This document shows positions 28,247 through 41,066 of a stretch of 41,066 bases of DNA, piece by piece. The notes beneath the pieces were generated by a model. That model was given only the letters and a program-made list of their open reading frames with translations, was not told the origin of the DNA and did no database searches. The position numbers and the translations under genes were made by a program. The stretch's first letter is position 1; every line of letters starts with the position of its first letter. The stretch comes from Clostridia bacterium (GTDB taxonomy: Bacteria > Bacillota > Clostridia > Christensenellales > Aristaeellaceae), in the NCBI GenBank assembly GCA_017412715.1, contig JAFPWU010000027.1, forward strand, positions 1 to 41,066. Reading direction: 5' to 3'.

Positions 28247-28780
28247 TTATGCTTCCGGCTCCAGCAGACCGAGGTTGCCGTCCTTGCGCAGGTACAGCAC
28301 GTTGGTCCGCTCCGTGTCGATATTTACAAAGGCGAAGAAGTTGTGGCCCAGCATCTCCATCTGGATGATGGCATCCTCGACGCTCATGGGGCGTACGGGG
28401 AAGGTCTTGTGCCGGACAATCTTCCGATCCTCTTCTTCCTGTTCTTCCTCGTAGAATTCGGGCATCTCGGTGAAGGCGTCCTCCCGGATGCGCTTGGCCA
28501 GCTTGGTCCTGTGCTTCCGGATCTGGCGCTCCGTCTTGGCCAGCGCCTGGTCGATGGCGACGAAGAGGTTCTGGTCCACCGCCTCGCTCCGAAGAATCAC
28601 GTTGTTCCCCATGGGAACCGTAATCTCCACAACCCGGTTATCGTTCTTTTCCTTCCGCATCCGAACCTGCAGCTCCGTCTCCGGCAGCAGGTACCGGCTC
28701 ATGGTCTGGGTCTTTTTCTCAATCCGCTGGGTAATCCCGGGGGTTACCGACATATTCCTTGCATTGATGGTCAGTTTCAT
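28247..28780 (-). CDS. hpf: Long-form ribosome hibernation promoting factor
   Basis: Dimerises 70S ribosomes into inactive 100S particles in stationary phase. The 177 residues show the long form: an N-terminal HPF/RaiA domain (MKLTINARNMSVTPGI to KHRTKLAKRIRE), a Glu-rich linker (FYEEEQEEEDRK), and the C-terminal dimerisation domain (RHKTFPVRPMSVEDAIIQM, then LGHNFFAFVNIDTERTNVLY). GGAG precedes the ATG at 28780. A sigma-H-type promoter lies upstream. It stands alone. Confidence 0.95.
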   Translation of the reverse strand: MKLTINARNMSVTPGITQRIEKKTQTMSRYLLPETELQVRMRKEKNDNRVVEITVPMGNNVILRSEAVDQNLFVAIDQALAKTERQIRKHRTKLAKRIREDAFTEMPEFYEEEQEEEDRKIVRHKTFPVRPMSVEDAIIQMEMLGHNFFAFVNIDTERTNVLYLRKDGNLGLLEPEA

Positions 28781-29118: not shown

Positions 29119-32100
29119 GTGAAATCCTGGTTTCTCCCTCTGGGCGCCGGCGCGGACCGGGCCCTCCCCGGGCTGCTCTCCGCCTTCGGTTGCGGCGCCG
29201 CCCGTCAGGCCCCTTCCGTCTCCATGCTGCGGATTCCCGCCTCCCGTCCGGAGGAGCTGGCGGATCGGCTGCTGGCGGATCTGAATTTCTGTCATCGCCT
29301 GCTGGCCCCAAGGGAGGAGTTTGCCTTTTTCCGGACGGAGTGGACCGCCGACCTGTGGCTTCCCCGGCTTCCCGACCGGGATCAGCTGGTGGAAAATCAG
29401 CAGAGCCGCCTCCTGCTGCAGGCCCTTCGGGGGGAGGGAGTTCCCTTCTCCTTCCGTACGGACCGGGAGGCCGCTGAATGGAGCCTCTCCGCCCTGCTGC
29501 AGCCCCTTCTGTCCCCGGAGACCGTCTCCCAGGAGGTCCCTGAAAAGACTGCTGCCCCGGAAGCTTCCGGGGCTGACGCCGAATCCCTGGCCCCTTTCCG
29601 CGCTTTCCTGTCACAGGTCCGGGCGGCGCTGGACGCCGGGGAGGAAGTCCGGATCCTGCTGATGTGTGACCTGTGCGAGGGCTATGCCGCCGGGCTGGCC
29701 CTGGGGCTGATGCGGTTCCTGCGGGCGTATTTCCGTCAGGATTCCCTCTTTCTGGGCCTGGTGGGACAGGTCCGGGCCTTCGGCGCCTCCGCCCTGGAGG
29801 ATCTTGCCGCCGCCCGGGAAACCCTCGCCGTCCTGAGCGACCGGAACCTGGTCCGCGCCTCCGAGGAGCGGGATACCCTGGGAGCTGACGCCTGCTGGCT
29901 GCTGGGGCTGCCCTCCGCCCTGATGACCGGAGAAGAAAGCTGCCTGCTGCTGGACTGGGCCGCCGCCCGGGTGCTGGGAGAAGTCTGGACGGCTTCCGAC
30001 CGTCCCTCCCCCGGCCTGCATACCCGGGAGCTGCCGGGCACTCTGACCCTGAAGGCGCTGGATCAGGAGGCCAAACCCGCCGCCGCCTTTCTGCGGGGCA
30101 GTTTCTGGTGCCTGAGCGATCTGTTTCCCGCCCTCCGCTCCTGGATGGAGCATCCCGCCCTGCTGCGGGGGCTGGCTCCGGCTACCCGGGGCGGCCTTTT
30201 CCGCAGGCTTTTCCGGGATCAGGATCTGGAAAAGTCCGGCCAGGATCTTTCCTCCCTGGAGCGGACCTTCCGGGCCCTGACGCTGCAGTTCCTGTCCCTT
30301 CTCCAGTCCGTTCCTTCCCTCCTGCGGGAGGAGGCTCCCGTCTCCGCCCTGTGGCAGGAGGCGGTGCAGGCCTGCGGCCGGACGGTAACCCTGGCCTCGG
30401 AATATGACGTCCGCCGTCAGGAGGCCGAGGAGTCCGGCGTGGACCAGGTGATGCCCGTCCATCGGGTCTCCCTTTCGGATACGGAGGAGGAGCAGCTTCT
30501 CCATCAGCTGGACCGGATGGCCGAGGAGCTCAGCGGACTGCGCAGCGAGCGTTCCGGCATCTTTCACCGGGCCGGGGGATACCTTTCCCGCCTCTCCCTG
30601 GAGGACTGCCTGGCCAAATGCCGGGTGGCCCGGGTCAGCGCCGCGGAAAAACTGTCCCTGCTCCCCTCCGATACCCCGGAGGAGCGTTTCGAGCTGGCCC
30701 GTCAGGCCCGGAGGGTCCGGCTGCTGGAGGCCGCCATTCTCCGCTGCCAGCAGGATCTGAAGGAATCCCAGAACTTTGAGACCCTCCGTTTTCCGGGAAC
30801 CCTGCGGCCTTCCGCCCTCTTCGCCGGGGAGATCCTGTCCCCGGAGGCGGCCGCCCAGGCCCTGACCCTGCTGTCCTCGGAGGGAGAAGCGGCGGAAGCC
30901 GCCGCCAAAGCCCTTCGGGAATCGCTGGAGTCCCTGCTGGTGGGGCAGACCCTGAACGACGGCAAAACCCTGCTGAAAAACCTGATCGCCACCTGCCGCC
31001 AGCCGGAGCCGGAATCTCCCCTGCGGGGGCTGATGGCGGGCATTTTCTCCGTCTGCGGCGTGGAGGTTTCCGGCCTTCGCTTCCACAGCGCCGGCCAGCT
31101 GCCCGCTGTGCCGCTGCTGCCGGATCTGACGGAGCCCGGCCGTTTCTTCTCCCTGGCCTCCGCCCCCGGCCGGATGCTGGCCTCGGTTCCGGAGGAAAAC
31201 CTCTCCCGGAAGCGGGGATTGCTGGCCCTGATGCTCCTCCGGCAGTACCGCCGGCGGAATCTGGGCGAGGCCGCCCTGGAGATCCTCCCCCTGCGGGAGG
31301 AGGATTCGGTGCTGACCCGGGTCTGGCTTTCCTCCCGGGGCATTTCCCAGGCCTTTCTCTGCACCCTGCGTTCCGGGGAAGGGGAGGAAGCCCGCAACCT
31401 GCCCCTGGCGCTGCTGCTGCCGGAAGTCGGCCTGGAGCCCGCCCGGCCCCAGCCCTCCCGGATGGATCTCGTTCCCTCCTTCTGCTTCTGGGCGGACCGG
31501 GATACCGGTCTTTTCCGGGATCCCTGCGCCTATTTTTCCGAAGCGGACCGGCGCATTCTCACGGAGCAGCTGACCCGCCTGCGGGCCTGCCTGAAATCTC
31601 CCCGGAGCCGGGTCTTCGTGGATTTCCTCAGCGACTGGCACCAGGACATCATGCGTTCTCCCCGTCAGGGGGAGGATCCGGAAGCCCTGAAAAAGCGCCT
31701 GCGGGTCGCCTGCGGGCTCACCTCCCTCCCCTCCTGGCAGAAGGAGCTGCAGCGGGTTTCCGCCTTCTATGAGGGCACCCTGACCGACGACCCCCTCTGC
31801 GCCGCCCTCTGCGGCCAGGAATCCTTCGAGCCGGCCTCCTGCGAGATCCGGGAGGATATCCTCTATGCCTTCCGGGGGACCCCCCTGGCCCGGGAACATG
31901 CCCGGCTGCTGCTGGAGGGCACCCATGCCCCGGAGGAGGATCTTTGCCTGGCCTCCCTGGATACGGAGTGCGGCATCCTGCTTCACTCCTCCGACGATTA
32001 TCACGAAGCGCTGGCCGCTTCCCTCCGGGCCCTGATGGACCGGTATCCCCAGGCGGATCCGGACGCCCGGGAGACGGCGGAAAGTCTCCTGCAGGAAGCC

Positions 32101-34425
32101 CTGGCTCCCATCTCGGATCAGGTGACGGACCTGACCTGGCCCTGGGATACCTATTCCGCCTCGGTGCTGACCATCCTGACGGAATGCCTGGGACCGGAGC
32201 TGGCCGCCTCCGCCCTGCATGCCTTCTCGGACAAACTGGCTCTGTTCCCCGCCCGGGGAGGAGAGATTCTGGGGGATGTGCTGCTCAGCGGCCTTTGCGT
32301 CCTGGGCAACGAACCCGAACCGTCTTCCGGGGAGGAAGCCTCTTCCGCCCCGGCGGAAGCTTCCCCGGCCCCGGAGACCGGAGCGGAGCCCCCGCAGGAA
32401 GCCTCGGTCCGCACCGATGCGGTGCTTCCGCCCCTCTCCCGGGATTTCGCGGCGGCCCTCTGCCGCCTGCCCCGGGGCCAGAGCCTGCTGACCCCCGGCT
32501 TCCTGGCCTTTGACCGGGAAGGGGGCGGCGTCCGGGTGACCCTGACGCTGGAGGGCGCCTTTACCCTTCGGCTGATCCGCAGATACGCTCCGGAGGAAGT
32601 GCTTTCCTTCTATGCCCACGATCTGCCCACCCTGGCCCTGTGGCCTTCCCTGCCCTTCCCTTCCGGCGCCTGGCAGGCTTATCATTCCTATGCCCACGGG
32701 CCGGAGGATTTCCGCTTTACCGCCCTTTCCCGGGAGGAGGAGATTCCCCTCACCGGCAGCGCCCCGCGCTACGCGGCCTGCCAGCGGGAGTATCCCCTCT
32801 GCTACCTGATCTCCTGGCAGGGGGAGGATATCGGCGCCGTGCCGAACCTGCTGCCGGCCCCGGAGATTCCGGAGGGCGGGGATCAGATCGCCTGCCTGGA
32901 TTTCGGCGCCGCCGCCACCTCCGTCATCTTCTCGGACGGCCGCACCCGCTGGCCCATGCAGGGGCCGGTCACGGTGCGGACCCTGCTGCGTTCCCCCGCG
33001 GTCACGGAGGAACTGCTCTGGCGGGAATTTCTGCCCGCCGTGCCCGTCTCCGCCCTGCTGCCCGGGGCCCTGAGGATCTTCCGAAACGACCTGACCGGGG
33101 ATGACCTTCCCCTGCGGGACGGGGCCATCTTCATGTCCTCCTCCCTGCGGGATGTGCTGGAGGTCTCCTCCGAGGCCCTGTATACGGATCTGAAGTGGAA
33201 CGGGGAGAAGGGCCGGGCCGCCCGGCTCTATCTCCATCAGGTGATGCTCATGGCTGCCCTCCAGGCCCGCTGCACCGGGGCTGCCACCCTCCGCTGGCGG
33301 ACCACCCTGCCGGAGGAAATGCCCCCGGAGGGCCGGCAGCGTCTGGCGGATCTGTTCCGCAGCCTGGCCGGGACCGTCGCCGAGGAAAGCGGCATCCCCC
33401 TGCCGGCCAAGGAGCCCCCGGCGGCCTTCTCCTCGGAGAGCGGCGCCCTGGGCGCCTACTTCCGCTTCTGCTCCCCGGATCAGACCCGGGGCGGCTTCAT
33501 GGCGCTGGATCTTGGCGCGGATACCGCCGACCTGTCCCTGTATCTGCGGGGACGGGAGGAAGCGGTGCGCTCCCTGCAGCTGCCCCTGGGGCTGCATAAT
33601 ATGCTGCTGCCGGCCCTGCTTTCCAGGCCCGGCATCCTGGAGGAGGATTTCGGTTATCTGCAGGATCCCCTTTTCCGGCGGGATCTGTCGGATCTGCAGG
33701 CCCTGCTGGAGCGGGCCCGGCGGGATCCGGCCGCCCTGCGCCAGGCCAGGTACGCCCTGGACGCACTGGTGGCGGATCATATGCCCCTCCTGCTCTCCGC
33801 CCTTGCGGAGCGCCGGGCCGCGGGCCAGCCGGGACGGACCGGGGCCCTGATCCTGCTGCACTTTAGCTTCCTGATGATGTCCGCGGGGCTGCTCCTCCTG
33901 CAGATTGCGGGGGATTCCCTGCAGAATGACGGCCTGCCGGAAACCATGACCCTTTTCCTGGCCGGCCGGGGCAGCCAGCTGATGGAAGCCCTGAGCCCCC
34001 AGACCCGGGCCTCTCTGTGGAAGCTGCTGACCATGTTCCGCAATCCCCGGGTCAGCTCCATGAATCTGCTCTTCTCCGCGGAGAAGAAGCTGGAAATCCC
34101 CGTGGGGCTCTCCGTACTGGACCGGCTGACCGCCGTCCCGCCCCGCCCCGTCACCGTCCCCGCCGCCATCGCGGTCCGGCCGGAGGAGCTGATGCCGGAG
34201 TTTCTCCTGCGTTTCCGGCGGGAATTCCCGGAGGAGGCGCAGCTGCTCTTCCCCGGCCTCTATGCCAATGACTATTATTCCCCCTTCACCCCCTACGGCC
34301 AGCAGCTCCTGATGCAGGCGCTGCAGGCGGCCTTCGGGGGACGGGAAGCCGGCCGGCCCTTCGACGGGCTTTCCGCCTTCCTGAGCCATCTGATGGAAAT
34401 GATACAGGAGGTTCGCCCCGCTTGA
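29119..34425 (+). CDS. Giant protein with C-terminal actin/Hsp70-fold ATPase domain
   Basis: A 1768-residue protein with no signal peptide. Residues about 1250-1640 carry the ATP-binding signature of the actin/Hsp70 (ASKHA) fold in correct order and spacing: phosphate-1 ACLDFGAAATSVIFSDG (near 1258), phosphate-2 MALDLGADTADLSLYLRG (near 1461) and an adenosine motif TLFLAGRGSQLMEAL (near 1613). The N-terminal 280 residues begin FLPLGAGADRALPGLLSAFG and include VRILLMCDLCEGYAAGLALG, a strand-loop-helix placed like the tubulin/FtsZ signature but without GGTGTG; a degenerate tubulin-like domain is a guess. Residues about 450-560 are helical. GTG start at 29119 follows GAAGGA. The stop overlaps the methyltransferase ATG by one base. 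Length and position suggest a scaffold or remodelling machine; its function is unknown. Confidence 0.85.
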   Translation: MKSWFLPLGAGADRALPGLLSAFGCGAARQAPSVSMLRIPASRPEELADRLLADLNFCHRLLAPREEFAFFRTEWTADLWLPRLPDRDQLVENQQSRLLLQALRGEGVPFSFRTDREAAEWSLSALLQPLLSPETVSQEVPEKTAAPEASGADAESLAPFRAFLSQVRAALDAGEEVRILLMCDLCEGYAAGLALGLMRFLRAYFRQDSLFLGLVGQVRAFGASALEDLAAARETLAVLSDRNLVRASEERDTLGADACWLLGLPSALMTGEESCLLLDWAAARVLGEVWTASDRPSPGLHTRELPGTLTLKALDQEAKPAAAFLRGSFWCLSDLFPALRSWMEHPALLRGLAPATRGGLFRRLFRDQDLEKSGQDLSSLERTFRALTLQFLSLLQSVPSLLREEAPVSALWQEAVQACGRTVTLASEYDVRRQEAEESGVDQVMPVHRVSLSDTEEEQLLHQLDRMAEELSGLRSERSGIFHRAGGYLSRLSLEDCLAKCRVARVSAAEKLSLLPSDTPEERFELARQARRVRLLEAAILRCQQDLKESQNFETLRFPGTLRPSALFAGEILSPEAAAQALTLLSSEGEAAEAAAKALRESLESLLVGQTLNDGKTLLKNLIATCRQPEPESPLRGLMAGIFSVCGVEVSGLRFHSAGQLPAVPLLPDLTEPGRFFSLASAPGRMLASVPEENLSRKRGLLALMLLRQYRRRNLGEAALEILPLREEDSVLTRVWLSSRGISQAFLCTLRSGEGEEARNLPLALLLPEVGLEPARPQPSRMDLVPSFCFWADRDTGLFRDPCAYFSEADRRILTEQLTRLRACLKSPRSRVFVDFLSDWHQDIMRSPRQGEDPEALKKRLRVACGLTSLPSWQKELQRVSAFYEGTLTDDPLCAALCGQESFEPASCEIREDILYAFRGTPLAREHARLLLEGTHAPEEDLCLASLDTECGILLHSSDDYHEALAASLRALMDRYPQADPDARETAESLLQEALAPISDQVTDLTWPWDTYSASVLTILTECLGPELAASALHAFSDKLALFPARGGEILGDVLLSGLCVLGNEPEPSSGEEASSAPAEASPAPETGAEPPQEASVRTDAVLPPLSRDFAAALCRLPRGQSLLTPGFLAFDREGGGVRVTLTLEGAFTLRLIRRYAPEEVLSFYAHDLPTLALWPSLPFPSGAWQAYHSYAHGPEDFRFTALSREEEIPLTGSAPRYAACQREYPLCYLISWQGEDIGAVPNLLPAPEIPEGGDQIACLDFGAAATSVIFSDGRTRWPMQGPVTVRTLLRSPAVTEELLWREFLPAVPVSALLPGALRIFRNDLTGDDLPLRDGAIFMSSSLRDVLEVSSEALYTDLKWNGEKGRAARLYLHQVMLMAALQARCTGAATLRWRTTLPEEMPPEGRQRLADLFRSLAGTVAEESGIPLPAKEPPAAFSSESGALGAYFRFCSPDQTRGGFMALDLGADTADLSLYLRGREEAVRSLQLPLGLHNMLLPALLSRPGILEEDFGYLQDPLFRRDLSDLQALLERARRDPAALRQARYALDALVADHMPLLLSALAERRAAGQPGRTGALILLHFSFLMMSAGLLLLQIAGDSLQNDGLPETMTLFLAGRGSQLMEALSPQTRASLWKLLTMFRNPRVSSMNLLFSAEKKLEIPVGLSVLDRLTAVPPRPVTVPAAIAVRPEELMPEFLLRFRREFPEEAQLLFPGLYANDYYSPFTPYGQQLLMQALQAAFGGREAGRPFDGLSAFLSHLMEMIQEVRPA

Positions 34426-35186
34426 TGGAACATATTACCTCCCCGAAGAACCCGAAGATTCTGGCCTGGCGCTCCCTGAAGGAGCGGAAGGGCCGTCTGG
34501 CCCACGGCAGCTTCCTGGTGGAAGGGGACCGGATGGTGAAGGAGGCCCTCTCCTCCGGCTTTCCGGTCCGGGCGCTGCTGATCCGGGGGGACCGGGTCCG
34601 GGATTTTGATCCGGGTCCTCTCCCGGAAAGCCTCCCCTGCTGCCAGCTCTCCGATCAGGCCTTCGCGGCCGTCTCGGATACGAAAACCCCCCAGGGGGTG
34701 GCCGCGGTGCTGGGCATGCAGCCCATCTCCCCCCGGGGAAGCCGCCTGCTGGCCCTGGACTGCGTCCAGGATCCGGGAAACGTGGGCACCATCCTCCGGA
34801 CCGCGGACGCCGCCGGGCTGGACGGCATCCTGCTGAGCCCGGATTGCGCGGACATCTTCGCCCCGAAGGTGCTCCGGGCCACCATGGGCAGCATCTTCCG
34901 GGTAGGTCTCAGCTTTCCGGAGAACCTGGCGGATCAGCTGAACGCCCTGCGGGAGGAAGGCTTCGAAATCCTCTCCTCCCAGCTGGACGGAACCCCCTTC
35001 TATGACCGGCCGGACCCGGGGGAAAAATGGGTGCTGGTCATCGGAAACGAGGGAAACGGCGTCTCCCTCCCGGTTCAGGCCGCCGCCACCCAGCGCCTCC
35101 GCCTCCCCATGCGGGGCGGAGCCGAATCCCTGAACGCCGCGGTGGCCGCAGGAATTATGATGTATGAGCTGATGAAAGGAAACTGA
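34425..35186 (+). CDS. SpoU/TrmH family RNA 2'-O-methyltransferase
   Basis: A 253-residue knotted SPOUT methyltransferase acting on rRNA or tRNA ribose. An N-terminal SpoU substrate-binding domain (SPKNPKILAWRSL, then FLVEGDRMVKEAL) precedes the catalytic domain with motif 1 DCVQDPGNVGTILRTADAAG, motif 2 VLVIGNEGNGVS and motif 3 RLPMRGGAESLNAAVAAGI. The site modified cannot be told from sequence. ATG 34425 overlaps the upstream stop (TGATG); a TTG one codon earlier is better spaced from AGGAGG and may be the true start. Followed after 2 bp by the BMP-like gene. Confidence 0.93.
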   Translation: MEHITSPKNPKILAWRSLKERKGRLAHGSFLVEGDRMVKEALSSGFPVRALLIRGDRVRDFDPGPLPESLPCCQLSDQAFAAVSDTKTPQGVAAVLGMQPISPRGSRLLALDCVQDPGNVGTILRTADAAGLDGILLSPDCADIFAPKVLRATMGSIFRVGLSFPENLADQLNALREEGFEILSSQLDGTPFYDRPDPGEKWVLVIGNEGNGVSLPVQAAATQRLRLPMRGGAESLNAAVAAGIMMYELMKGN

Positions 35187-35188
35187 AA

Positions 35189-37129
35189 ATGGATATCAGA
35201 AATTATGACCGTGCAAGACAGAGGGGCCTCAGGGCCTATAGCCAGGCCGTCTCCGAGGGCAAGGATCCCTATCTCCCGGTGCTGGAGGAAAAAGTCCCCG
35301 GCCTGAACGGGCTGAACCGCCTGTCCCTGGGCATTATGAGCATCCCCCTGGATCGGGTGGTGGGCTCCGTGTCCCGGGGCCGGTCCTTTGCCTTTGCCTG
35401 CAATTTTATGCCCATCCTGGAAAACCACTCCGAGTTCGGCACCAAATGGGGCACCCTCTACGAGAGCGTCGCGGAGCAGGGGCTCCGGGATCCGGTCAAA
35501 GTGCTGGAATACATGGGCTATTATTACATGATCGAGGGGAATAAGCGCGCCAGCGTCATGAAATACATCGGCGCGGAGGATGTCGAAGCGGATGTGACCC
35601 GGGTGATTCCTGTCCGGCAGGATACGCCGGAGAGCACCGCCTACTTCGAGTACTGCGCCTTCTCCAGGGAGACCGGCCTCTATGACCTGTTCTGCACCCG
35701 TCCCGGCTCCTATGACCGGCTTTCCGCGCTGCCCGGCATGAAGTCCGGGGAGAAGTGGAGCCAGGACGATGTGATGTCCCTGCGGAAACTCTTCCGCTAC
35801 TTCAGCACCGCCTATCATAAGATCATGCAGGATCAGCCGGCCATTCCCGTGGGGGATGCCTTCCTCCGCTGGCTGCTGGCCTTCGGGTATGAGGATACCC
35901 GGGACAACTCCATGCAGGAGGTGGAAAAGAGCCTCAAGCTGATGCAGGAGGAATTCCGCGCCCGGGAGGATGCCATGAATCTGGTGCTGGAGCACTCGGA
36001 TTCCACCCCCGCCCCCAGCATTCTGCAGGCCCTCTTCCATCCCAGCAAGATCAAGGCCGCATTCCTCTATACCCGGCCGGTAAACGAGTCCGCCTGGAAC
36101 TACTGGCACGAGATGGGCCGCCTGGAGGCCCAGGAGAAGCTGGGCAGCAAGGTGGAAACCGTGGGCCGGGTGGTCTCCTCCCGGACCGACACGGAGGAGG
36201 AGATCGAAAAGCTGGTCAAGGAGGGCTTCAACGTCATTTTCGCCACCTCCCCCGTCATGCTGAACAGCTGCGTGGAGCCGGCCCTGAAGCATCCGGAAAC
36301 CCGCCTGCTGGTCTCCAGCCAGCTGGCCGGATACCATCACGTGCATACCTATTACCTGCGCTTCTATGAGGCCAAATTCCTTCTTGGGATGCTGGCGGGC
36401 ATCCTGTCCGACAACGGGAAGATCGGATATATCACCGATTATCCCATCTACGGATCCCCCTCCATGATCAACGCCTTCGCCATCGGCGCCCGCATGGTGA
36501 ATCCCCAGGCCCGGATCTATCTGAACTGGACCTCCCTCCAGAGCTTTGACCAGAATGAGCCCTTCCATGATCCGGAAATCCGGGTCATCTGCAACCGGGA
36601 TCTGACCGCTCCCAATCGGGACTCCAGGGATTCCGGGCTTTATGTGCGGGAGGGCGGAGAGATCCTTTCCATGGCCACCCTGGTCCCCCGCTGGGGTATT
36701 TTCTACCGCCATGTCATGGAGCTGATGCTGAAGGGCGTCTTCGATTCCGCCTCCGCGACCAGTTCCGCTTCCCTGTCCTATTGGTGGGGCATCGCCTCGG
36801 ATACCCTGGATCTGGCCTTCTCCTCCCGCTGCAATCCGCCCACCGTGCGGCTGATCCGGAATCTGCAGGAGCAGTTCCGCTCCCAGTCCTTTACCCCCTT
36901 CGAAGGGGAGCTGCGGGATCAGAAGGGTGAAATCCGCTGCATGACGGATCAGCGGCTGACCCCGGCGGAAGTGCTTTGTATGGATTACCTGGCCGACTGC
37001 GTCGTGGGCTCCCTGCCCTCCCCGGAGGAGCTGGTCCCCTCCGCCCGCAGCCTGCTCCTGACCCAGGGCATCGGCAGCCTGGCCAAAGCCGACGTGGGCT
37101 CCATCTCCTGGACAGATCCGAGGAAATAA
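35189..37129 (+). CDS. Cytosolic ParB-like/BMP nucleoside-binding fusion protein
   Basis: A 646-residue protein without signal peptide or membrane helix. Residues about 88-145 resemble the ParB/Spo0J N-terminal fold: LYESVAEQGLRDPVKVLEYM followed by YYMIEGNKRASVMKYIGAE, close to the ParB G-x-R-R helix. Residues about 190-280 are helical. Residues about 288-560 match the BMP (type-1 periplasmic-binding) fold: KAAFLYTRPVNESAWNYWHE, NVIFATSPVMLNSCVEPALK, EAKFLLGMLAGILSDNGKIGYI and SMINAFAIGARMVN. Database names would call it a transporter substrate-binding protein, but a cytosolic location and the ParB-like segment argue for a purine or nucleoside sensor, perhaps nucleotide- or DNA-binding. It starts 2 bp after the methyltransferase. 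Confidence 0.85.
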   Translation: MDIRNYDRARQRGLRAYSQAVSEGKDPYLPVLEEKVPGLNGLNRLSLGIMSIPLDRVVGSVSRGRSFAFACNFMPILENHSEFGTKWGTLYESVAEQGLRDPVKVLEYMGYYYMIEGNKRASVMKYIGAEDVEADVTRVIPVRQDTPESTAYFEYCAFSRETGLYDLFCTRPGSYDRLSALPGMKSGEKWSQDDVMSLRKLFRYFSTAYHKIMQDQPAIPVGDAFLRWLLAFGYEDTRDNSMQEVEKSLKLMQEEFRAREDAMNLVLEHSDSTPAPSILQALFHPSKIKAAFLYTRPVNESAWNYWHEMGRLEAQEKLGSKVETVGRVVSSRTDTEEEIEKLVKEGFNVIFATSPVMLNSCVEPALKHPETRLLVSSQLAGYHHVHTYYLRFYEAKFLLGMLAGILSDNGKIGYITDYPIYGSPSMINAFAIGARMVNPQARIYLNWTSLQSFDQNEPFHDPEIRVICNRDLTAPNRDSRDSGLYVREGGEILSMATLVPRWGIFYRHVMELMLKGVFDSASATSSASLSYWWGIASDTLDLAFSSRCNPPTVRLIRNLQEQFRSQSFTPFEGELRDQKGEIRCMTDQRLTPAEVLCMDYLADCVVGSLPSPEELVPSARSLLLTQGIGSLAKADVGSISWTDPRK

Positions 37130-37263: not shown

Positions 37264-37953
37264 ATGAAAATTCTTGTTCTGGCAGATGAGCCGGTTCAGC
37301 GGCTCTGGGGCGAGTATGGCCTGGATACCCTGCGTCAGGCGGACCTGGTCCTCTCCTGCGGGGATCTTCCCTCCTCCTATCTCAGCTATATGACCTGCTT
37401 CTGCCCCGGACCCGTGGTCTATGTCCACGGCAACCATGACGATCACTATGACAAGAAGCCTCCGGAGGGCTGCATCAACGCGGAGGGGCACGTGGTCATG
37501 GTCAACGGCATCCGCATCCTGGGGCTGGGAGGCTCCATGCGCTACCGTCCGGGCTGTCCCACCATGTTCTCCGAGGCGGAGATGTCCGCCCGGATCCGGA
37601 AGCTGCGCCGGGAGCTGAAGGGCACCGGCGGCTTCGATCTGCTGCTGGCCCACTCCCCCATCGCGGGGGTGGGGGATCAGCCGGATCTGCCCCATCGGGG
37701 ATTCGAATGCTTCAAGCCCCTGCTGAGCGAATACCGCCCCCGGGTCATGTTCCACGGCCATGTGCACCAGGCCTATGCCGCGGTTAACTTCGTCCGGGAG
37801 CGGGAGTATGAGGGCATCCCCGTCATCAATGCCTGCGGCTCCTATCTCTATGACTGGCCGGATGAATGGAAGGTCTCCTCCCTGCCCGGCCGCCTGGCCC
37901 TGCGCAGAATGATGAAGCGCAGCCAGCCCGGGGAGGAATATGAACATTTCTGA
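37264..37953 (+). CDS. Calcineurin-like metallophosphoesterase with altered motif I
   Basis: A 229-residue phosphoesterase. Metal-binding motifs II to V are present: LSCGDLPSSYL, VHGNHDD, LLLAHSPIAG and MFHGHVHQAY. Motif I, normally D-x-H, reads LADEPVQRLW: the Asp is there but the His is replaced by Pro. This may lower activity or change metal use. GGGAG lies before the ATG. It is separated from the upstream operon by a repeat-bearing gap and could be a lone gene. Substrate unknown; nucleotides, phosphoproteins or RNA ends are possible. Confidence 0.88.
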   Translation: MKILVLADEPVQRLWGEYGLDTLRQADLVLSCGDLPSSYLSYMTCFCPGPVVYVHGNHDDHYDKKPPEGCINAEGHVVMVNGIRILGLGGSMRYRPGCPTMFSEAEMSARIRKLRRELKGTGGFDLLLAHSPIAGVGDQPDLPHRGFECFKPLLSEYRPRVMFHGHVHQAYAAVNFVREREYEGIPVINACGSYLYDWPDEWKVSSLPGRLALRRMMKRSQPGEEYEHF

Positions 37954-38026
37954 CGCAATGCCTCTTTCACTCAGGCCTGTTCTGACAGGCAGACAGAGGA
38001 CGGATTTACCAAGGAGGAAAAATGCG

Positions 38027-41000
38027 ATGCTGAAGAAGAAGCTGATCGGTTGGATCATCTTTCTGTGCGTGATGTTCCTTTGCTGCTCCGCCTGCGCGGA
38101 AATCTCCACCAATCTCCGGAAGGAGACCACCTATACGAGAAACAATAAGATCCTGACCCAAAGCTTTGTGGATTCCGAAGGGAATACCGTCATGGCGGAG
38201 GACCTGGGGTATGCCACCCTGGTGAACACCTACACCTCCGGCAACAAGCTCGTACAGACGGAGTACCTGGACGCAGCAGGGAATCCCGTAAACAACGCCT
38301 ACGGGTTTTCCGTCCGGCGGCTGACCTATGCCATGAAGAAAATCCGGCTGGAGGAGTTCCTGGATACGGAGGGCAATCCCGCCCCGGGGCCCCAGGGTTA
38401 TGCCCGCTGCGAAACGGACTGGGAGCAGGGGAAAAAGCACATCGAGACCCGGTATTACGATCCGGAGGGAAACCTCTTCCGTTCCTCCTCGCTGTTTGCC
38501 CGGCGCACCACCGTCTATTCCGATGACGAGAAGCTGAAATGGTCCCAGCCGCTCAGCGACACCTGGTACGACGCGGACGGAAACATGATGCGGGGCCCGG
38601 ACGGCTATGCCCGGGTGGAGTATGAGTATGTGCCCGGCACCAGGCGGGTCAGCAAAACCACCTATCTGGACGAGGCGGGAAACCTGTATTATAACCGAAA
38701 GGTAGGGTACGCCATCCTGGAGCGGACCAACAAGGACGGATTATTCATCCGGGACTCTTATTACGGAGCGGACGGAAATCTCTGCGCCGGGCCGAAGGGG
38801 TACGCTTATGTGGAGCTGAAATACGGGAATGAAAGGAAGCCCATTGAGGAAAAGTACTTCGATGTCAAAGGGAATCCCTATAAGATGCCCGGCGGATACT
38901 ATATGCTCACCCGGAAATACGCCCTGAAAAGCCGGATAGCTGAGGAGGCCTATTTCGATGCTGACGGCAGCCCCTGCCTCAGCTCGGAGGGCGTGCACGC
39001 CATTCGCACCACCTATCGGAAGGACGGAAAGATCACCCAGCGATTCTATGCGGGCCTGGATGATAAGTTCATGATGCATCCCACCCTGGGCTACGCATAC
39101 TATGTGAATGATTATACCGGGAAAACCCTGACGAAAACCACCTATTACGACGCCAGCCGGAAGGTGGTCGACTGCGCCGCCGGCTACGCGGTCTATCTGT
39201 TCTCCCGGGACGCGAACCGGGCTCCCTCCGGGGCCTCCTATCTGCACGCGGACGGCTCTCCGGCCGTGGGCCCTGAGGGTTATTCCCGCGTGGTATATAC
39301 CAGCGACAAAAATAAGAATATTCTTACGGAAGTCTTCTATGATACCGAGGGAAACCCGACCACCAATGAAGATGGCGTTTACGAAGCCCGTTACACCTGG
39401 AACGGAACGCTTCAAACCTCCGCCTCTTTCTTTGAAAACGGCCAGCCCGCCTCGAACCTGAACGGGGTGCATGAAATTCGCTGGCAGTATAACGGGGACG
39501 GTAAAATCACGAGCACCTCGTATTTGGGCCCGGATGGAAACCCGGTGATGGGAGAGGACGGCTTCTCCGTCCAGGTCACGGAATACCTGGCCAGCGGAAA
39601 GCCCGCCGCGGTCCGGTACTATGATGAAGCAGGCCGCCTGATCCTGACCCCCGGCGAAGAATTCGCCTATCAGCTGACGGAATATAACGAAGAAGGCGAT
39701 GCCTATACGGTAAGCAGCTATGGCACGGACGACCGGCTGATGATCGTCGGCGGTTATGCCGCTCAGGTCTGCGAGCTGGATGAGGACGGCCGGGTCATTC
39801 GCACCTCCTGGCTGGATGAAAACGAGGATCCCATTGCCAATGCCAAAGGCATCGGCTCCACAGAAAACGAATATAACGATGAGGGCCAGATCGTTTCCAT
39901 CACCTACCGGGATCTGGAAGGGAATCTGATGCTGACCGGGGACGGCTATGCCATCCTTCTGAGGGGCTACGACCAGTATGGCAATGTGAATGAGGAAAGC
40001 TACCTGGATACGGATCGCAGTCCCGTTCTCCGGAAGGGCGGTTATGCCAGCATCCACCGGATCTACGCGGCCAAAGGCCGTCTGATGGAAGTCACATATT
40101 TCGGCACATCGGGAGAAAAAGTGCTCATCCCCGCAGGCTATGCCCGGGAGGTACGCACCCTGGATGAACACGGAAACATAAGTTCCGTCACCTATCTGGA
40201 CACCCAGAATCAGCGGATCGCCAATTCGGACGGTTACGCGGAGATCCGCCGGGTCTACAATGCAAAAAAGAAAGTTATCCACGAGGAATGGTATGACGCG
40301 GAAGGCCGGCCCACCCACATCAAGGGGGATGAATATTTCCAGGTGGACCGGGCCTATGACGAGGCGGGAAATGTGGTCGCTGAAATCTATCGGGACGCCT
40401 CCGGTAATCCCATGCCTGACAAAAACGGAGTCTTCGAGGCACGGAGCGTCTGGGAGAACAAACTCCGTCTTTCCATCGCCTATTTCCGGGAGGATCAGCC
40501 GGCTCTCGATGCCAATGGCGTCCACAGCATCCGCTACGAATATAATGAGAACCGGAAGCAGACCCTGCTTTCCCGTTTCGACGTGAACGGCGCCCCGGTC
40601 ATGGGCAAAGACGGATACTCCGTCAAAGCCACGGAGTACCTGTCCAACGGAAAGACCGCCGCTGTCCGGTACTATGACGAAGCCGGCCGTCTGGTCCTGA
40701 CCCCCGGCAAGGAATTTGCCTATCAGCTTACGGAGTATAATAAAGACGGCACCGGCTATACCGTCAGCAATTATGATACGGAAAACAAACGCCTGATGCT
40801 GGGCGGTTACGCCGTCAAGGTCTGCGAGATCGACGAAAACGGGCGCGCAACTAAGACGTCCTGGCTGGATGATCAGCTGCAGCCCGTCACGGTGAATACC
40901 TTCGGGTTCATCGAGAACACCTATCATGAGGACGGTCAGATCGCTTCCGAGACCTACAGGGATCTGGACGGAAATCTCATGAACCACAGCGACGGCTATG

Positions 41001-41066
41001 CCTCCGTGCAGCGGCTCTCCTATGACAGCTTTGGGAATGTCACGGAGGAACGCTATTTCGGAACCG
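38027..41066 (+). CDS. Giant exported tandem-repeat protein (partial, 3' end off the window)
   Basis: An open frame of 1013 codons reaches the right edge with no stop. Residues 1-22 are a signal peptide (KLIGWIIFLCVMFLCCSACA-E), with AxA-type cleavage more likely than a lipobox. The rest is built of some two dozen repeats of about 36 residues: a GYA-like start, a YxxxG turn, then YYDxEGNP. It recalls YD or Rhs-type repeats but is not a clear match to either; extended beta structure is likely. From 39374 a 1053-bp block is repeated in register from 40427. AAGGAGGA precedes the ATG at 38027; an earlier ATG at 38022 reads only three codons. No function is assigned; adhesion or wall-surface roles fit. 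Confidence 0.85.
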   Translation, partial: MLKKKLIGWIIFLCVMFLCCSACAEISTNLRKETTYTRNNKILTQSFVDSEGNTVMAEDLGYATLVNTYTSGNKLVQTEYLDAAGNPVNNAYGFSVRRLTYAMKKIRLEEFLDTEGNPAPGPQGYARCETDWEQGKKHIETRYYDPEGNLFRSSSLFARRTTVYSDDEKLKWSQPLSDTWYDADGNMMRGPDGYARVEYEYVPGTRRVSKTTYLDEAGNLYYNRKVGYAILERTNKDGLFIRDSYYGADGNLCAGPKGYAYVELKYGNERKPIEEKYFDVKGNPYKMPGGYYMLTRKYALKSRIAEEAYFDADGSPCLSSEGVHAIRTTYRKDGKITQRFYAGLDDKFMMHPTLGYAYYVNDYTGKTLTKTTYYDASRKVVDCAAGYAVYLFSRDANRAPSGASYLHADGSPAVGPEGYSRVVYTSDKNKNILTEVFYDTEGNPTTNEDGVYEARYTWNGTLQTSASFFENGQPASNLNGVHEIRWQYNGDGKITSTSYLGPDGNPVMGEDGFSVQVTEYLASGKPAAVRYYDEAGRLILTPGEEFAYQLTEYNEEGDAYTVSSYGTDDRLMIVGGYAAQVCELDEDGRVIRTSWLDENEDPIANAKGIGSTENEYNDEGQIVSITYRDLEGNLMLTGDGYAILLRGYDQYGNVNEESYLDTDRSPVLRKGGYASIHRIYAAKGRLMEVTYFGTSGEKVLIPAGYAREVRTLDEHGNISSVTYLDTQNQRIANSDGYAEIRRVYNAKKKVIHEEWYDAEGRPTHIKGDEYFQVDRAYDEAGNVVAEIYRDASGNPMPDKNGVFEARSVWENKLRLSIAYFREDQPALDANGVHSIRYEYNENRKQTLLSRFDVNGAPVMGKDGYSVKATEYLSNGKTAAVRYYDEAGRLVLTPGKEFAYQLTEYNKDGTGYTVSNYDTENKRLMLGGYAVKVCEIDENGRATKTSWLDDQLQPVTVNTFGFIENTYHEDGQIASETYRDLDGNLMNHSDGYASVQRLSYDSFGNVTEERYFGT
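39374..41066 (+). repeat. 1053-bp tandem duplication within the repeat protein gene
   Basis: Block one (39374-40426) and block two (from 40427) align without gaps over the visible part: GVYEARY with GVFEARS, TEYLASGK with TEYLSNGK, EFAYQLTEYNEEG with EFAYQLTEYNKDG, and TYRDLEGNL with TYRDLDGNL. Confidence 0.85.

Follow-up and report, generated by a model that had tools for sequence, protein, structure and literature searches.

Can a single bacterial protein join a tubulin-like and an actin-like domain? Tubulin-like and actin-like proteins make up the two major families of the cytoskeleton, and work on them usually proceeds separately. The question is raised by a 41,066-nt stretch of DNA (the window) from a member of Clostridia, for which the initial annotation had proposed a 1768-residue protein with actin/Hsp70-type (ASKHA) nucleotide motifs in its C-terminal third and, speculatively, a degenerate tubulin-like N-terminus. 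Our best explanation, to which we assign a probability of about 0.6, is that the protein is a single-chain fusion of a tubulin-superfamily and an ASKHA protein that derives from coupled genes of an envelope-linked operon and acts by the mechanism proposed below. The features on which the argument draws are collected in Table 1.

Table 1. The fused gene, its parts and its immediate neighbours in the window
Feature	Position (nt)	Strand	Residues	Remarks
Ribosome hibernation factor HPF/YfiA	28247..28780	-		divergent
Fused tubulin-like/ASKHA gene	29119..34425	+	1768 aa	GTG start
Tubulin-like domain	29119..30108	+	~1-330	GTP loops degenerate; hhalign A5 vs A3, E 3.8e-15
Place of T1 loop, PLGAGADRALPGLL	29137..29178	+	7-20	GGxGxK in canonical split relatives
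Place of T4 signature loop, CDLCEGYAAG	29665..29694	+	183-192	GSIFGGTGA in canonical split relatives
Mostly helical stretch	30109..31188	+	~331-690	ancestral gene junction near its end; low-confidence model
Middle region of second ancestral protein	31153..32403	+	679-1095	no known domain found
ASKHA ATPase-type region (predicted)	32404..34422	+	~1096-1768	
Phosphate-1 motif CLDFGAAATSV	32893..32925	+	1259-1269	
Phosphate-2 motif LDLGADTADLSLYLRG	33505..33552	+	1463-1478	
Adenosine motif LFLAGRGSQL	33952..33981	+	1612-1621	
SpoU-family RNA methyltransferase	34422..35186	+		start overlaps fusion stop by 4 nt

The reading frame and its ASKHA-type half

Translation of the window returned the 1768-residue open reading frame (ORF) where it had been placed. 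The GTG start is directly preceded by GGAAAGAAGGAAAAAGC, a plausible ribosome site, and the eight fused ORFs that were translated, the window's included, contain no internal stops. The fused gene has a G+C content of 0.83 at third codon positions, and such GC-rich positions probably account for the long antisense frames that lie over the fusion. One of these, of 1592 codons, runs opposite the gene in the window (29611-34389, minus strand), and one of 2238 codons was seen in locus L056. ORF cluster 37 was rejected for its antisense look, the real gene being HPF on the other strand, and clusters 1 and 5 were set aside as they look like antisense ORFs in GC-rich loci. Searches of the window protein with Pfam and NCBIfam gave no credible family match, and Hsp70 (PF00012) was absent among the Pfam families listed for it.

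The three ASKHA motifs occur in order in the C-terminal half, about 203 and 152 residues apart, a spacing that agrees with the one first reported. Their acidic residues are kept, and the phosphate-2 GGGT is worn to GADT in the window. The profile evidence came from a canonical ASKHA alignment of 11 rows, window included (A4). In an hhalign comparison A4 matched MreB (Prob 97.4, E 1e-11), and a search of the PDB recovered MreB, FtsA and Hsp70 chains, the best being MreB at E 1.6e-4, which bears out the assignment of the C-terminus to the ASKHA superfamily. The ASKHA protein of genome G721 falls just over the MreB_Mbl cut-off (28.4 vs 27 bits). Alignment A2 reached FtsA in the PDB at E 0.12, and the ASKHA half of five fused proteins alone gave a weak match to MreB (Prob 24.7, E 7.9e-4). 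Across the 41 members of A2, no known domain was matched in the ~400 residues before the ASKHA region. AlphaFold models of five sequences (the window and four fused relatives) had a mean pLDDT of 36.5 for this half, which is too low for a fold search.

A motif table of 51 first-half rows was scored with loose patterns. Phosphate-1 and phosphate-2 were kept in 13/13 fused rows, and both tubulin loops, the T1 glycine loop and T4 GGGTG(S/T)G, were lost (0/13, window protein included). This better retention of the ASKHA motifs, together with the Hsp70 chains among the PDB matches of A4, would also fit a chaperone-like machine, in which the ASKHA half is an Hsp70-type remodelling ATPase and the pseudo-tubulin a client adaptor, with no polymerisation. 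We consider such a machine unlikely: the best matches were to MreB and FtsA, none of the 41 A2 members had PF00012 in its list of matched families, and neither DnaJ nor GrpE was found in the selection of neighbours that was scanned.

Split relatives, operon context and distribution

Within its genus the fusion belongs to the core gene set. It was matched in 38 of 45 genomes, in 33 of them nearly full-length and in one piece; in one genome (G880) the match lies in two pieces of one frame, and four others (G175, G882, G890 and G903) have partial matches. All 13 high-quality genomes (≥90% complete, ≤5% contaminated) carry it, and the seven genomes with no match are 60-83% complete. The window's own assembly comprises 1.77 Mb in 36 contigs and is 54.7% complete. 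One in-frame TGA was seen inside the fusion match in each of two genomes, G112 and G904.

At the level of the family, the window protein matched 62 of 200 sampled genomes. The 11 sampled genomes of the window's genus encode one long protein (cut by a contig end in G175, and with one TGA in the match in G112), and the other genera have shorter ORFs. Forty loci, of which 30 belong to other genera within the family, were fetched and compared with profiles grown from one split pair. In these 30 loci the first half was matched in 29 and the second half in all, the stretch fetched for L071 containing the second half alone, and two adjacent genes, tubulin-like and then ASKHA, are present in 29/30. 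The two halves of the window protein match the same profiles at E 1.6e-167 and 0, values obtained with the window inside the profiles by iteration. In 23 of the 29 pairs, the closest potential start codon for the second gene shares 1 or 4 nt with the stop of the first, and in all 29 it lies within 33 nt, a spacing as would be seen in translational coupling.

The motif table also follows the fate of the loops. Nineteen rows were counted with a lipoprotein gene, and these have T4 GGTG in 19/19 and T1 GGxGxK in 18/19; the 32 rows counted without it have T1 in 0/32 and T4 in 4/32. Among the 20 split rows scored as lipoprotein-free, the phosphate-2 pattern appears in only 3, one of the three being L071, which is mislabelled (its genome has a lipoprotein gene on another contig), so ATP use may not be important in every member. 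A quick-method tree of 51 second-half rows, with SH-aLRT as its only support measure, places the fused rows in one clade (support 100). Changes on this tree number one for T1, two for T4 and two for the lipoprotein, one of the latter being L071. Since the lipoprotein loss and the T1 loss fall on about one branch, their association represents about one event and is given no significance. Read at the level of sequence, these comparisons show that the history ran from a split gene pair to a fused chain. The unusual architecture suspected from the window, with both domains joined in one chain, is real and specific to this clade.

The split pair is part of a larger gene set. Nine loci of the family, G721 and three cyanobacterial plasmids (Gloeothece PCC 7822, NIES-970 and Picosynechococcus PCC 73109) bring together genes for a lipoprotein, a small membrane protein, the tubulin-like protein and the ASKHA protein; several of these loci were seeds of the profiles used, and in Gloeothece the lipoprotein gene is on the opposite strand. 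Five plasmid records from cyanobacteria contain matches to both halves. In a different family of the same order, three loci combine a lipoprotein gene with tubulin-like and ASKHA genes, the intervening membrane protein having been checked in two of them. Three or four hydrophobic segments were seen in each small membrane protein examined. The lipoprotein gave no credible Pfam domain, and we read it as vWA-like from a MIDAS-like DGSGSM visible in some members. This vWA-like gene stands beside the tubulin-like gene in the older split loci, and there is no such gene at the fused form. A lipoprotein profile search of 11 genomes of the genus found no match in ten and, in the remaining one, a 4e-4 match to the first 71 positions, the signal-peptide end. 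In Prevotella F0039, tubulin-like and ASKHA genes were found by profile, and our reading of the ORFs suggests a lipoprotein with an SGSM loop, a coiled-coil protein and a zinc-ribbon protein; the lipoprotein profile did not report this candidate lipoprotein. A 1.77 Mb Prevotella record filed as a plasmid (L101, NC_022111.1) carries the pair, and its size suggests a chromosome.

A search of 398 genomes sampled from the phylum returned G721 and two very weak matches for the tubulin-like set, and the window's genome, G721 and one partial match for the ASKHA set. These few matches indicate that the system is rare. Other phyla were covered through plasmid and phage records. Genes of the FtsZ and MreB types are present besides in 15/15 genomes checked. 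Genome G721 also has a second, more divergent FtsZ-type gene (contig C1, 1441383-1441868), some 20 kb from the canonical operon. Tubulin_2 proteins above the cut-off were found in 2 of 41 genomes of the genus. Loci L104 and L105 hold a separate Tubulin_2 protein in open frames of 1210 and 1203 codons, and in L104 it is adjoined by a membrane protein whose vWA-like loop reads DKSGSM, an arrangement like that of classical FtsZl1.

On the downstream side of the fusion, the SpoU-family RNA methyltransferase is the next gene in 8 of the 12 fused loci listed, and HPF/YfiA is not thought to belong to the system. Further downstream in the window are a protein of 646 aa (35189-37129), in which a partial Bmp/PnrA domain follows an N-terminal portion that gave no match, and, at 37940-41065, a metallophosphatase followed by a long protein with weak RHS/YD-like matches that is cut at the window end. 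In other genomes, galE lies ≤0.8 kb upstream on the same strand in 14/41 loci and an exopolysaccharide sugar transferase lies within 6 kb in 12/41, neighbours that only hint at a role in surface-glycan synthesis. Glycan synthesis was not adopted as the function, since neither galE nor the exopolysaccharide genes occur at the window locus and their presence elsewhere may reflect plain synteny.

The patchy distribution and the plasmid location in cyanobacteria invite another explanation, namely that the protein is a conflict or defence component that responds to invaders and is related to the GTPase-centred tubulin and HSP70 systems of Kaur et al. 2020. The accessible part of that article (PMC7159879) describes systems that bring TRAFAC GTPases together with homologues of tubulin and an HSP70 protein, as well as tubulin neighbourhoods with vWA and membrane proteins, but it also calls the tubulin and HSP70 themes non-overlapping. 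Moreover, the selected neighbours scanned by Pfam included no GTPase, GAP1 or FNIII, PADLOC produced only one weak match (E 0.009, to a lipoprotein), 50,697 phage records gave no match, and the fusion is a core gene in its genus. We regard a conflict role as quite unlikely.

The tubulin-like half and selection on the fused protein

The case for the N-terminal half runs through its canonical split relatives, which have GGTGNK or GGTGAK close to the N-terminus and, further along, GSIFGGTGASG or a close variant. Within the canonical tubulin-like set of 11 members (A3), Tubulin_2 was matched in 10/11 (best 2.2e-10) and Tubulin in 7/11 (best 2.5e-5); among 41 first-half proteins, 13 matched Tubulin_2 (best 1.9e-7) and 13 matched Tubulin (best 4.1e-5). 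The Gloeothece protein, which is named tubulin-like in the public record, is the sole canonical member above the Tubulin_2 cut-off (40.8 bits, cut-off 27), the G721, NIES-970 and Prevotella proteins being below it. A profile of five fused proteins (A5) aligned to A3 by hhalign with a Prob of 98.5 over 384 columns and with both loops in register (E-value in Table 1), as compared to control E-values of 0.85 against MreB and 0.51 against the lipoprotein. The proposed degenerate tubulin-like N-terminus therefore holds by way of the canonical intermediates but not by direct comparison with tubulin profiles, in which the five fused proteins gave a non-significant E of 0.1 against Tubulin_2. The tubulin Pfam models did not match the window half, and an A3 profile search of the window's genome (G000) at E 0.001 did not pick up the window's own gene. 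Taken together, the profiles support homology of the fused N-terminal half to the tubulin superfamily through its canonical relatives only.

Searches at greater distance were weaker. A3 gave E 0.0047 against a small Tubulin_2 alignment and 0.086 against an FtsZ alignment, both at low probabilities and with an MreB control of 0.41. In the PDB, the top matches of alignment A1 were designed proteins, with chains of the tubulin family at E 0.08, 3.1 and 9.3, and the A3 profile found nothing relevant. The AlphaFold models of the same five sequences had a mean pLDDT of 44.0 for the tubulin-like half, again too low for a fold search. In the helical stretch that follows, where the N-terminal profile stops and the C-terminal profile starts, blocks with a pLDDT of 65-77 occur only around residues 490-550. 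The weak direct comparisons with FtsZ and Tubulin_2, and a predicted model that showed no fold, could mean that this half is some other Rossmann-type domain with glycine loops that merely resemble those of tubulin. We find this highly improbable given the Tubulin_2 and Tubulin matches across the canonical members, one of them above a curated cut-off, the two loops in the right order, and the public naming of the Gloeothece protein.

The fused protein is under purifying selection. In comparisons of the window with five fused relatives, dN was below dS in every segment compared, and dN/dS was 0.30-0.47 for residues 1-330 and 0.26-0.37 for residues 1096-1768. The ASKHA part had the lowest dN/dS of the four main segments in 4/5 comparisons, the fifth (L059) being near saturation. 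For the short T4 region the window and L034 gave a dN/dS of 0.77. A decaying relic with no function, which the loss of both tubulin loops and the absence of the ASKHA motifs from several split relatives might bring to mind, was already disfavoured and is barely conceivable in view of this constraint, a frame open over ~1750 codons and the presence of the fusion in every high-quality genome of the genus.

Proposed mechanism and relation to known systems

Returning to the single-chain fusion of a tubulin-superfamily and an ASKHA protein, we propose that the source operon encoded an extracytoplasmic vWA-like lipoprotein, a small membrane protein, a tubulin-like GTPase and an ASKHA ATPase. In the ancestral system the GTPase and the ATPase would have acted as partners on the cytoplasmic side of the membrane, where assembly or a change of shape, driven by nucleotide, would have been relayed to the membrane protein and to the external lipoprotein. 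Here we infer nucleotide binding, assembly, membrane linkage and partner interaction. Along the branch that produced the fused chain, the genes for the lipoprotein and the membrane protein have disappeared from the locus and the tubulin loops have decayed. The tubulin half of the fused form may now be a pseudo-GTPase that provides a fixed assembly or docking surface, with the ASKHA half as the remaining ATP-gated switch of a cytosolic scaffold. A bolder version is possible but doubtful: a two-superfamily envelope machine of two filaments or two switches, found in at least three bacterial phyla and membrane-linked to a surface vWA lipoprotein, of which one genus would have welded the pair together and turned one filament former into a pseudo-enzyme.

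A conserved tubulin-like/actin-like pair with a fused lineage would give a defined system for asking how the two families cooperate, and the cyanobacterial copies in cultured strains make this question testable. The series from canonical pair to loop-less fusion also illustrates the stepwise turn of a tubulin-like GTPase into a pseudo-enzyme.

A tubulin-like/ASKHA pair of this kind and its fusion were not found in full-text searches of main articles available without subscription. The nearest published counterparts appear to be of two types. The GTPase-centric (GAP1) systems of Kaur et al. 2020 are, in the accessible part of PMC7159879, built round GAP1 and DO-GTPase genes, with HSP70 given together with GrpE. 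Like the system described here they include, in Firmicutes, homologues of tubulin accompanied by vWA and membrane components, plus an HSP70 theme, whereas no GAP1 or DO-GTPase was found among the selected neighbours scanned (by Pfam, with no GAP1-specific model used) and no tubulin-HSP70 fusion was found in that part of the article. The FtsZl1 family (Pfam Tubulin_2) of Makarova and Koonin 2010, as presented in the accessible part of PMC2875224, occurs in vWA operons, has a type member of 1051 aa with a coiled coil, and has kinases, P-loop GTPases and OmpA-type proteins as operon partners; the words hsp70 and dnak are absent from that part, and its actin passages concern other systems. FtsZ-like Tubulin_2 proteins are also met in a survey, as far as the accessible part of PMC9871819 goes. 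To the extent that these portions describe FtsZl1, it and the present system both have a tubulin-superfamily protein that bears a GTP loop, is often encoded in one operon with vWA and membrane proteins, and exists beside an ordinary FtsZ. The present system differs in that the partner is an ASKHA protein of ~1100 aa and that one clade has a single chain with the tubulin loops lost. No P-loop GTPase, kinase or OmpA-type partner was found among the selected neighbours scanned, most neighbours lying outside the scan. As in MreB, FtsA and other ASKHA proteins, the phosphate-1, phosphate-2 and adenosine motifs follow one another in order. Unlike in MreB and FtsA, the ASKHA region forms the end of an ~1100-aa protein with a large unmatched front, and it is found beside, or fused to, a tubulin-like partner.
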